Below, piece after piece: positions 17,373-26,976 of a stretch of DNA of 64,000 nt (the first letter of the stretch is position 1; the number at the start of each line of letters is the position of its first letter). Under the pieces are notes generated by a model, which worked only from the letters and a program-made list of their open reading frames with translations, searched no databases and was not told where the DNA came from. The stretch covers positions 992,001 through 1,056,000 of the forward strand of contig NZ_JAMZDZ010000001.1 in assembly GCF_024172085.1 (NCBI RefSeq). The letters run 5' to 3'. The translations under genes were made by a program, and so were the position numbers. Origin of the DNA: Hamadaea flava. Its GTDB lineage: Bacteria > Actinomycetota > Actinomycetes > Mycobacteriales > Micromonosporaceae.

Positions 17373-17520
17373 CCGCCGATGGTAGGTCGAGGCGACTCCC
17401 AGCGGCCACCTCATTCGGCCGTGGGTGAACACCGGCCGGCCGACGCCTCCTGTGAACTGTCTGCAAAATCTTTCCGGCAAAGGGCCCTCCGCTGTGCGTA
17501 CAACCGGGAAGATTCTCGTG

Positions 17521-20169
<2,649 letters not shown>

Positions 20170-20214
20170 CTCCCCCTCGCCTCCCCTTCCGCGCCGCGCG
20201 CTCCCGCCTGGCCA

Positions 20215-20318
20215 TGATCGTCGGCAGCCGCCGTTCATGGCGGTCTGCGTCTCCATGATCGGCGGCGGCCGCCGTTCTTGGACCGATTTCCGAGATGATC
20301 GTCGGCAGCCGCCGATCA
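20215..20318 (+). repeat. Left 104-bp inverted repeat of the DUF559 cassette
   Basis: Three copies of a 23-bp palindromic unit at 20215, 20256 and 20296, spaced 41 and 40 bp. Each has arm TGATCGKCGG, a centre (CAG in two copies, CGG in the middle one), and an arm close to CCGCCGWTCA. The whole block matches the reverse complement of 21357-21460 at 87 of 104 positions by hand alignment. The innermost copy supplies the stop codon (20316-20318) of the minus-strand DUF559 gene. Confidence 0.9.
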
Positions 20319-21212
20319 TGCGGCGAGGCCACCTTGGGCCGCCGAAAGCCGCCGCACCATGTGAACGATCTCCGCGACCACCTTCTCCGGCCGATGCGTC
20401 AGGTCGTACCAGGTGTACCGCAGCACCTTCCAACCAGCCGCTACCAGGCGATTCTGCCGCTCACGGTCGCGCTGGAACCGATCGCCGGCGGAGTGCCAAG
20501 CGCGCCCGTCCATCTCGACGGCCAACTGGATGTCCTCGAACGCGAGATCGATCTCCCCGATCAGTCCTTCTTCGTCGTACGCCGGGAAATTCGCCCGCCA
20601 GCCCGTCACGCGCGCTCCTCGAAGGTGGCCGATGAGCAGTCGTTCGGCAACGGAACGGGCACCTGGGACCGTCCGCCGCACCAGGCGTACCAGATGGTTG
20701 ATCCCACGACGCCCGGCGAAGTCGTGGACCCTGGCCACGAGCTCATCGAATGTGATCCACCGCTGCTGAAACGCCCGGTCGAGCAGGCTGTCCGCCTTGT
20801 CGTCGTCGAGAATCCGCAGGCAGTCGAAGACGGTCCGGGCGCGGCCGGTGATCAGGATCCCGTCCACGAACTCCAGGTCGGCATCGGGTAGGTCTTCGTA
20901 CCAGACCTGGACGCCGGCCAGTCGGCAATGGCCGTGCCGCCTCACGGTGAGCCAGGTCCCACGGTCCGGCACCTCGATGCCGTGACGTCGTGCGGCCGAC
21001 GACGCGCTGAGAACGGCGGCCGGCGCGGCAAGCACTGCGGCCAGGTCCCGCAGCCGCGGCGTAACCACCAGGCCGCGAAGCGACAGGACCGGACCGAGCA
21101 CCACCTGCCACTGCCCGGAGCGGATCCGATGAGCGATCTGCCCGGCGGTGAACCCGGCCTTTCGCGCGTCCGTACGCGTGAACAAGCCGGACCGCGTCGA
21201 GATGGTGGGCAT
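20316..21212 (-). CDS. DUF559 protein with AbiEi-like N-terminal wing and Vsr-like nuclease fold
   Basis: A 298-residue protein. The N-terminus (SGLFTRTDARKAGFTAGQIA, then VVLGPVLSLRG) resembles the winged-helix part of AbiEi-type antitoxins. The C-terminal DUF559 domain, related to Vsr/restriction endonuclease folds, has GEIDLAFEDIQLAVEMDGRAWH followed by DRERQNRLVAAGWKVLRYT. The ATG at 21212 is preceded by GGAGGTC about 8 bases upstream. It separates two alpha-glucan genes and is enclosed by 104-bp inverted repeats, suggesting insertion of a unit. Biochemical role untested for the family; nuclease or antitoxin-like functions are possible. Confidence 0.88.
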   Translation of the reverse strand: MPTISTRSGLFTRTDARKAGFTAGQIAHRIRSGQWQVVLGPVLSLRGLVVTPRLRDLAAVLAAPAAVLSASSAARRHGIEVPDRGTWLTVRRHGHCRLAGVQVWYEDLPDADLEFVDGILITGRARTVFDCLRILDDDKADSLLDRAFQQRWITFDELVARVHDFAGRRGINHLVRLVRRTVPGARSVAERLLIGHLRGARVTGWRANFPAYDEEGLIGEIDLAFEDIQLAVEMDGRAWHSAGDRFQRDRERQNRLVAAGWKVLRYTWYDLTHRPEKVVAEIVHMVRRLSAAQGGLAA

Positions 21213-21356
21213 GGAGCATCGACCTCCGTCCGTGGCACGCCACGGGCTGAGGGAGGCACAAAGGCGTGGGAACCGAAGGCCAGAAGGTATCCGGCTGGGT
21301 GGCCGAGGTCCAGCAGAGCGCGACACCTGTGGAAAACCCTCCATGACCCGTGTTGG

Positions 21357-21460
21357 TGATCGGCGGCAGCCGACGATCAGGCCGTTCAGCGCTCCAATAT
21401 CGGCGGCAGCCGACGATCACGAAGACGCAAACCGCCATGAACGGCGGCAGCCGACGATCA
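21357..21460 (-). repeat. Right 104-bp inverted repeat of the DUF559 cassette
   Basis: Mirror image of 20215-20318: three 23-bp palindromic units at 21357, 21397 and 21438 (spacing 40 and 41) with central CAG on this strand. It lies in the 290-bp divergent region between the DUF559 start (21212) and the debranching enzyme start (21503). No target-site duplication was found directly outside the outer edges (GCCA before 20215, ACGT after 21460). Confidence 0.9.
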
Positions 21461-21502
21461 ACGTGCCCCGGGGTCTCGGGAACGCGGCTGATAATCGGAG
21501 GC

Positions 21503-23350
21503 ATGACGATCCGGTTCGGACCACAGCTCTGCACCGACCTGTCGGCGGGCGCGCGACGGGAGTGGCTGGTCACCGACGGCCTCGGCGGGTACGCCATGGG
21601 CACGGTCGGCGGTCTGCGTACGCGGCGCTATCACGGGTTGCTGATCATGGCCGATCCCGAGCACGGGCCGGCCCGCCGGCACCTCGGCCTGGCGAGCCTG
21701 GACGCGACGGTGACGCTGGAGTCGGGCCGGACCGTGCGGTTGGGCGTGCACGAGTGGGCGGACGGGACGGTCGACCCGTGCGGTCATGAGCTGCTGACCA
21801 GCTTCGACTTGACCGACGGCGTACCCCGGTGGCGGTGGCAGATCGGCTCGGTGGTGATCGAGCGCGAGATCGCCATGCGGCACGGGGAACCGTCGGTCGC
21901 GGTGGTGCACCGGCTGGTCGGCGGCGGCCCGGTCGAGCTGACCTTGGCGGTGCTCGGCACCTGGCGCGACGTCCACGGGGAACGGACCGCGCAGGGCCCG
22001 CCGCCCCAAGCGACGACGACCGCCGACGGGGTGATCGTCGAGGGGGCGTATCGCGTACAGGGGGACGCGGAGTGGCGGCCGAAGGGCGAGTGGTGGTTCG
22101 GCGTACGCCATCGGGAGGAAGCCGAACGCGGGCTGACCCCGGTCGAGGATCTGCGGCACCTCGGGGAGTACTCCGGCCGCCTGGACCGACCCGGCCAGTC
22201 CATCGGGGTGACCGCTTCCGCCGAAGGCACCCGGGTCGAGCCCGCCGAGACGACGGTCGAGCGAGCGCGCGACCGGGGACGGCGACTGGGCGACGACGGC
22301 AGGGCCGCCGACCAGTTCGTCATCCGTACGCCCACCGGTCCGGACGTCGTGGCGGGCTATCCGTGGTTCGGGGCCTGGGGTCGCGACACGATGATCTCCT
22401 ACGAGGGGCTCTTCCTGACCACCGGCCGGGTCGACGAGGGCCGCCAGCTGCTGCGGAACTATGCGGCAACGCTCAGCGAGGGCATGCTGGCGAACACGTG
22501 TGACACGGGGTCCCGGGAGTACAACACCGCCGACGCCACGCTCTGGTTCCTGCACGCGGTCGACCGGCACGCGCAGGTCGACCCGGATCTGGCCGAGGAG
22601 CTGCGGTCCCAGGTGCGGTCGGTGGTGGACCACCACACCTGGGGCACCCGGTACGCGATCAAGATGGACCCGGTCGACGGCCTGCTGGGCCAGGGCGCCG
22701 AGGGTGAGGCGTTGACCTGGATGGACGCCCGGGTCGGCGGAGTGCCGGTGACGCCGCGCGCGGGCAAGGCGGTCGACATCAACGCGCTGTGGGTCAACGG
22801 GCTGGCCGGGCTGGCCGAACGCTGGCCCGAGGACGGCTATCGGCAGTTGCACGACCGGGCCAGGCAGTCGTTCCAGAGGTTCGTCCGGCCGGACGGTCTG
22901 CTCCACGACGTGCTCGATCAACCCGAGCCGGGGGTCCGGCCGAATCAGCTCCTGGCCTGGTCGCTCCCCCACGCACCACTCGTCCCGGAGGCTGATCCGC
23001 TCCGGCGGCTGACCGAACAGCTGCTCACCCCGATGGGCCTGCGCAGCCTGTCCCCGGCGGCCGACGGCTACCGGGGACGTCACCGGGGTACGCCGGCGGA
23101 CCGAGACCGGGCGTACCACCAGGGGACGGTGTGGCCCTGGCTGCTCGGCCCTCTCGCCGACGCGACCGGCAGACTCGCGAACGACAGAGTCGGAACGCCG
23201 GCGGACGGCATCGAAGGCCATTGGAGCGACTACGGCCTCGGCTCGGTGAGCGAGACCGCCGACGGGGACGCACCGCACGGAGCCACCGGCTGCCCCTTCC
23301 AAGCCTGGTCCGTCGCCGAGACCACCCGCGTCAGGGAGACAACGCCCTGA
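21503..23350 (+). CDS. Amylo-alpha-1,6-glucosidase (glycogen debranching enzyme)
   Basis: A 615-residue enzyme that removes alpha-1,6 branches of glycogen-type polymers. The N-terminal domain begins with SAGARREWLVTDGLGGYAMGT and RTRRYHGLLI. The GDE-type (alpha/alpha)6 catalytic domain has YPWFGAWGRDTMISYEGL, NTADATLWFLHAV, and GTVWPWLLGPL. The ATG at 21503 begins the family's conserved N-terminus, although its GGAGG is only one base away, which is unusually close. It sits just before the glycogen synthase/glgB pair; the 287-bp gap to that pair suggests separate transcription. Confidence 0.9.
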   Translation: MTIRFGPQLCTDLSAGARREWLVTDGLGGYAMGTVGGLRTRRYHGLLIMADPEHGPARRHLGLASLDATVTLESGRTVRLGVHEWADGTVDPCGHELLTSFDLTDGVPRWRWQIGSVVIEREIAMRHGEPSVAVVHRLVGGGPVELTLAVLGTWRDVHGERTAQGPPPQATTTADGVIVEGAYRVQGDAEWRPKGEWWFGVRHREEAERGLTPVEDLRHLGEYSGRLDRPGQSIGVTASAEGTRVEPAETTVERARDRGRRLGDDGRAADQFVIRTPTGPDVVAGYPWFGAWGRDTMISYEGLFLTTGRVDEGRQLLRNYAATLSEGMLANTCDTGSREYNTADATLWFLHAVDRHAQVDPDLAEELRSQVRSVVDHHTWGTRYAIKMDPVDGLLGQGAEGEALTWMDARVGGVPVTPRAGKAVDINALWVNGLAGLAERWPEDGYRQLHDRARQSFQRFVRPDGLLHDVLDQPEPGVRPNQLLAWSLPHAPLVPEADPLRRLTEQLLTPMGLRSLSPAADGYRGRHRGTPADRDRAYHQGTVWPWLLGPLADATGRLANDRVGTPADGIEGHWSDYGLGSVSETADGDAPHGATGCPFQAWSVAETTRVRETTP

Positions 23351-26855: not shown

Positions 26856-26871
26856 CTCCCCCACCGCCTTT

Positions 26872-26907
26872 CCGGTTGATCATGAACCTTCGGTCATGAT
26901 CAACCGG
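26872..26907. terminator. Perfect 14-bp-stem palindrome at convergent gene ends
   Basis: CCGGTTGATCATGA pairs perfectly with TCATGATCAACCGG around an 8-base loop (ACCTTCGG). It lies 16 bp after glgB and before the end of the opposing gene at 26977, so it probably terminates in both directions. There is no T-tract. Two further CCTGATCAAC words follow at about 26928-26957. Confidence 0.7.
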
Positions 26908-26976
26908 CGTGTCGTGTCCCTACCGCCCTGATCAACTCCGTACGGCCCTGATCAACAGGGAGGCGTAGCGGGCGGC

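Follow-up and report, generated by a model that had tools for sequence, protein, structure and literature searches.

The DUF559 gene of Hamadaea flava considered here lies between two opposite-orientation copies of a dispersed intergenic element, which has so far been found only in some members of the genus Hamadaea (Micromonosporaceae). The window, i.e. the whole stretch of 64,000 nucleotides that was analysed, was compared with the genome it belongs to (G000, 8.86 Mb in one contig) and with other Hamadaea genomes (G039, G080, and G061). The element is dispersed, has a recurrent three-palindrome architecture with sharp edges, is restricted to one genus within what was searched, and is placed at the 3′ ends of genes in G000. 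According to the preferred reading, to which we assign a probability of roughly 0.8, this element spread in the past in trans and has persisted at 3′ ends, and the DUF559 gene is not part of it. This does away with an attractive but probably mistaken connection between a nuclease gene and the repeats around it. It also provides, in an actinobacterial genus, a REP-like family with clear borders that lacks the Y1 transposase usual for such repeats, which makes the spreading agent a testable question.

Anatomy of the element

The DUF559 gene (20316..21212, minus strand, 298 amino acids with the start set by a codon-usage gene caller; the longest open reading frame starts at 21344) is convergent with an upstream gene (17425..20169, plus strand) and is neighboured on its other side by a downstream gene (21503..23350, plus strand), both labelled as putatively of alpha-glucan type by the first-pass annotation. 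The left copy of the ≈ 108-bp element occupies 20213..20320, with its canonical orientation on the minus strand (106.3 bits against a three-unit model), and the right copy occupies 21355..21462 on the plus strand between divergent genes (90.8 bits); both belong to the 28 sequences from which the model was built. The 23-bp palindromic units H3, H2, and H1 of the left copy are located at 20215..20237, 20256..20278, and 20296..20318 (minus strand), and H1, H2, and H3 of the right copy at 21357..21379, 21397..21419, and 21438..21460 (plus strand), the first of these being identical to the search consensus. The six palindromes, their mirrored spacings of 41 and 40 bp in the left and 40 and 41 bp in the right flank, and the inverted match between two arms of 104 nt each (20215-20318 and 21357-21460, complementary at 87 of 104 positions, or 84%) had been described in the first-pass annotation and were all reproduced. 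The same holds for its statement that the inner repeat supplies the stop codon of the gene: the TGA (20316-20318) falls inside the nearest palindromic unit, H1 of the left copy. With up to three mismatches, eight unit matches were obtained on both strands of the window, at five distinct places, and none in 100 dinucleotide-preserving shuffles, such that chance does not explain them.

The gene call itself was confirmed, with two Pfam domains above their cut-offs, PF18741 (MTES_1575, 44.5 bits, cut-off 38.2) and PF04480 (DUF559, 32.9 bits, cut-off 20.6). The N-terminal part resembles AbiEi (AbiEi_4 below threshold in Pfam; PADLOC E 5.8e-18), and the predicted assignment of the protein as a DUF559/MTES_1575 nuclease-fold domain with an AbiEi-like N-terminal part holds.

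The element is built as H1, a 17-nt spacer, H2, an 18-nt spacer, and H3, with a consensus for each spacer and with a 10-bp stem and a 3-nt centre as the form of the palindrome. Its edges are short inverted ends, CA[A/T]GATCGTCGG ... CCGACGATC[A/T]TG. Copies with exactly three units at 40/41 spacing (11/11 in G000, 17/22 in G039) could be aligned without gaps over 108 columns, and the mean pairwise identity rose from ≈ 0.3 outside the element, or 0.40-0.48 over the final 10 nt of the left flank, to ≈ 0.5-0.95 inside; the step coincides with the CA ahead of the first unit and the TG behind the last, which defines sharp borders. Arrays were assembled by recruiting neighbouring units with up to five mismatches at a spacing of 39-42 bp, and within this range the G000 spacings were 40 bp (51 cases), 41 bp (44), and 39 bp (4), with 56 of 67 consecutive pairs reading 40/41 or 41/40. 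The longer arrays include repeats that are almost the same, matching at up to 97/104 positions within one locus, which points to tandem duplication. Two G000 copies 4.6 Mb apart (L044 at 5884 and L059 at 5949, genome positions 2727883 and 7329948) match at 91/104 positions, their flanks looking unrelated; this pair gives the clearest hint that copying took place comparatively recently.

The tetranucleotide CGTC is present in the units, but within the paired stem, and GTAG or CTAC occurs anywhere in only 7 of 68 arrays, with no consistent GTAG head. Neighbouring units share the same orientation in 50 cases in G000, 23 in G039, and 17 in G080, and are opposite in 14, 3, and 5 cases, respectively (35, 40, and 9 undecidable). 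The two arms differ in information content at positions 4/20 and 5/19, and in G000 also at 7/17, an asymmetry which arises partly by construction, the arrays having been oriented by their better-conserved arm; where the weaker arm has changed, its partner shows no compensating change. In G039 the central trinucleotide is found in both complementary forms at similar frequency (AAG in 32 and CTT in 28 of 101 units), giving the impression that the loop flips.

Dispersal, placement, and turnover in Hamadaea

In G000 a unit search allowing three mismatches returned 68 matches on the forward and 66 on the reverse strand, a palindrome often being matched on both, and the reversed unit returned none in the same search. 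The fetched array places comprise at least 33 arrays with 132 units, at 1-7 units per array; one further place (5501731) was matched by the three-unit model outside these 33, which are therefore a minimum. At least 35 arrays were found in the partial set from G039, 22 of them with exactly three units, and at least 13 in the partial set from G080. Several draft contigs of G080 (L094, L098, L103, L104, and L105) begin or stop at or inside palindrome units, and array counts in drafts are thus likely to be low. No arrays were detected in G061, neither by a two-mismatch unit search nor by the three-unit model. Across the family, the two-mismatch search matched 4 of 300 genomes, the own one included and G037 with one stray unit, and the three-unit model, under strict filters, matched 3 of 150, all Hamadaea and again including the own genome. 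A two-unit pattern run over wider genome contigs gave 46 stretches, of which 45 belong to two Hamadaea sp. MAGs and the remaining one, in a Micrococcales genome, looks like chance. A literature search on Hamadaea repeats, DUF559, REP/REPIN/RAYT/BIME, and actinomycete palindromes yielded, among the papers listed, no description of this element; the main text of the RepRanger repeat survey (PMC12306157) contains neither Micromonospora nor Streptomyces.

The placement of the arrays was scored on gene calls from our own codon-usage gene caller for 31 of the 33 G000 arrays, those of L186 and L187 being left out. All 31 sit in intergenic gaps, with an overlap of gene ends of at most 29 nt: 16 gaps are convergent, 14 tandem, and 1 divergent, to be compared with 12 convergent, 73 tandem, and 57 divergent among 142 control gaps of at least 80 nt from the same fetched loci (Fisher test for convergent versus divergent, 4.5e-9). 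The tandem gaps agree with this bias, 13 of their 14 arrays lying closer to the 3′ end, and the sole divergent case is the right copy of the window. In G039 the 3′-end bias is weak (11 convergent, 8 tandem, and 6 divergent among 25 scored arrays, p 0.04; 3′ end closer in 5 of 8 tandem gaps), and one array overlaps a called gene. A unit provides the stop codon at 4 of the 31 scored G000 arrays, the one in the window included, and at 1 of 25 in G039.

Arrays persist at orthologous sites, although their number of units is not always the same. Shared sites are over-represented, all fetched loci being array-bearing; among these loci, nine array sites are common to G000 and G080, two of them cut by contig ends, and at the seven uncut sites the unit number differs at four and is equal at three. 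Seven sites are common to G000 and G039, with a different unit number at six and an equal one at one, and one G000 array is absent from G039. A clean pair of filled and empty sites was not obtained: only one compared array, present in both G000 and G039, is missing from G080, and that site differs by more than the array.

A second, more abundant repeat of ≈ 95 bp, rich in TGATCA motifs, was noticed at 26865-26960 of the window. At least 41 matches were counted in G000, 42 in G039, and 43 in G080 (in a first look, 40 candidates were scored of 174, 241, and 129, respectively), and none in G061, such that its presence and absence over the four Hamadaea genomes is identical to that of the three-palindrome element.

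The DUF559 gene and its two flanking copies

The first-pass annotation had viewed the locus as a mobile or domesticated unit resembling a REPIN or MITE, with the DUF559 protein as its cargo or mobiliser. One part of this view stands, namely that the flanks are REP/MITE-like dispersed repeats; the idea of a DUF559 cassette is not supported, given that the gene and the arrays dissociate both ways. Homologues of the protein at E 1e-20 occur in 28 of 121 genomes, the own one included, and among them is the array-free G061 (45% identity). On the other hand, the array-bearing G039 and G080 yielded no homologue at this threshold (19/29 and 19/21 candidates scored; G080 87% complete), and a tblastn search with the DUF559 protein over 74 array loci (778 kb, three genomes) at E 0.01 gave no match outside the window. 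G000 has seven distinct loci with a match to PF18741 or PF04480 (E 0.001), and six of these are 121-530 kb away from the nearest of the 34 array places; units are spread over the whole genome without a DUF559 gene beside them, as had been named beforehand as evidence against the cassette. Eight homologue loci in eight other genomes were free of unit-like sequence (exact degenerate pattern), with one 13-nt match at most as a flank-to-flank repeat, and for the own-genome paralogue L032 a single weak direct flank match of 33 nt was seen. No DUF559 relatives were confirmed in the wider genome contigs. Since arrays and DUF559 homologues separate in both directions, the cassette reading is unsupported, and the gene between the window copies is probably a bystander, an unrelated neighbour. 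A Pfam scan of 20 proteins beside or between arrays (19 from G000 and 1 from G039, selected from among the flanking genes) revealed no transposase and no DUF559; 17 of the 20 gave Pfam matches, all of different kinds. In G039, a gene for a GGDEF/EAL protein is likewise bracketed, by a three-unit array on one side and a single unit on the other.

The orthologous intervals differ from the window. In G039 the DUF559 gene and the arrays are both absent and other open reading frames are found instead, and flanks kept where the gene is lacking, the other pattern named beforehand as speaking against a cassette, were not encountered there. A copy of the ≈ 95-bp TGATCA repeat (L091, 6425-6513) lies inside this G039 interval, the counterpart of which in the window holds the DUF559 gene. 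The G061 interval (L093) is rearranged, the upstream gene being inverted relative to the downstream one, and in G080 a contig starts inside the downstream gene; the exact insertion boundary at the window locus could not be recovered from these three genomes.

The two window copies stand out by their mutual likeness. Among 36 canonical 104-nt segments of G000 they are each other's best match, and their 87/104 compares with a mean of 72.7 (sd 5.0) over 619 between-locus segment pairs, only three of which reach 87. As mutual best matches they are not independent draws from the repeat family. This likeness would also suit an analogue of the REP-RAYT system, in which the DUF559/AbiEi-type protein would be the enzyme that binds and mobilises the 23-bp units, with its home copy in the window, the more so as the protein combines a nuclease-fold domain with an AbiEi-like part and its gene lies between two inverted copies, as RAYT genes always do according to PMC2817692. 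The arrays without a homologue in G039 and G080, the homologue without an array in G061, the empty search of 74 array loci, the distant DUF559-type loci of G000, and the unit-free loci elsewhere argue so consistently against it that this proposal is largely refuted and has to be considered very improbable. The likeness of the two copies, together with the divergent position of the right one, allows for local duplication, gene conversion, or inversion. Along these lines, recombination between the inverted copies might have inverted the DUF559 segment, captured it, or duplicated it; in the inversion variant, the gene would formerly have been co-directional with its neighbours and both arrays downstream of stop codons. 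Such an event would account for the only divergent array of the 31 and would fit the differing interval content in G039 and G061, but the gene was not seen in the opposite orientation in any relative, the case is a single one, and two arrays within 1,142 bp of each other somewhere in the genome have a probability of 0.13 under uniform placement. We consider this composite origin rather unlikely.

Spread, function, and relation to known repeats

All eight folds of four copies, computed for both strands, have low energies (z -2.4 to -7.5). Covariation was not seen, with 84.5% of cells paired versus 84.8% in partner shuffles, and a T run longer than 1 was absent in 62 of 66 array flanks, such that classic terminators lack support. 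Two sub-threshold Rfam matches were the only hints at a known RNA family and were taken as chance. Given the missing covariation, the uncompensated arm changes, and the missing T runs, the copies are more likely to have been spread and conserved as DNA than selected for an RNA fold; a mild role at 3′ ends, or mere tolerance there, is conceivable. The Y1 transposase PF01797 (RAYT) was found in none of the four Hamadaea genomes, with 5 of 14 control genomes positive, E. coli included. Direct flank repeats of at least 5 nt, as expected for target duplication, were present at 0 of 33 arrays in G000 and 1 of 35 in G039, the means for shuffled partners being 2.28 and 1.27.

Two functional explanations can be weighed against these data. 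The arrays might be bidirectional 3′-end structures selected for termination or mRNA protection and kept for their function rather than merely tolerated; the placement at 3′ ends, the low folding energies, and the long life at orthologous positions are in favour of this, but repeats tolerated only outside promoters would give the same placement, and the missing T tract, the missing covariation, and the absence from G061 count against it. This explanation is conceivable, with the odds somewhat against it. Alternatively, the arrays could represent phased binding sites of a nucleoid or boundary factor, for which the conserved arm CCGACGATC every 40 or 41 bp matters and not the hairpin. The more informative arm with its uncompensated partner and the spacing of 39-41 bp throughout (looked for at 39-42) fit this proposal, although the arm asymmetry stems partly from how the arrays were oriented, the spacers are conserved as well, the weaker arms, which are particular to each unit, seem to descend from a single ancestral element, and the placement tracks gene ends instead of promoters; phased binding sites are rather unlikely.

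According to the preferred reading, i.e. a dispersed element independent of the DUF559 gene, copies would have spread in the past by means of an enzyme that worked in trans, with the palindromes or the ends as its substrate, and the arrays would then have expanded and contracted in steps of ≈ 81 bp or 41 bp by slippage or unequal recombination. Copies would persist just after stop codons, where harm may be small or help may be given; hairpins at this position could serve to cap mRNA ends or make them more stable, and to keep convergent transcripts apart. The DUF559 gene would have ended up between two copies without belonging to the element, and these copies probably swapped sequence, or one gave rise to the other locally.

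Several features recall known repeat families. As with REP and BIME sequences (PMC2817692), the palindromes are short and extragenic, number more than 100 units per genome, are clustered, and are regularly spaced. The size criterion for REPs (palindromes of 20-40 bp, extragenic, in high copy) agrees with units of 23 bp and the 132 fetched from G000, whereas the unpaired GTAG or CGTC end tag of REPs is lacking. The Hamadaea element departs from RAYT-associated REP/BIME by having no Y1 transposase match in four genomes, from BIMEs by neighbouring units that are more often of the same than of opposite orientation (regular spacing and recurrent spacers being present), and from both by spacers that mostly alternate between 17 and 18 nt and by the inconsistent GTAG head. 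According to PMC3733652, the ends of GTAG REPs are a frequent source of stop codons for adjacent open reading frames, and CGTC-tagged REPs have no dedicated transposase and are placed at 3′ ends in convergent and tandem gaps, both of which resemble the situation in Hamadaea, where likewise no dedicated transposase is known. By the same source, however, CGTC is an unpaired tag in those REPs and lies inside the stem here, their stems of 8-9 bp with loops of 4-5 nt contrast with 10 bp and a 3-nt centre, and they form head-to-head dimers instead of a three-unit element. The element is small and dispersed, with terminal inverted repeats and sharp borders, but with no target duplication seen at its arrays. 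The first four of these properties are those of MITEs, to which target duplication belongs as well. BOX-type repeats are modular, with a variable number of internal modules, and the Hamadaea arrays also vary in module number. Tentatively, and with less than even odds, the family may be seen as a genus-restricted actinobacterial counterpart of REP/BIME, with a fixed 108-bp element, amplification steps of ≈ 81 bp, and a non-RAYT enzyme that is possibly common to the second repeat family.
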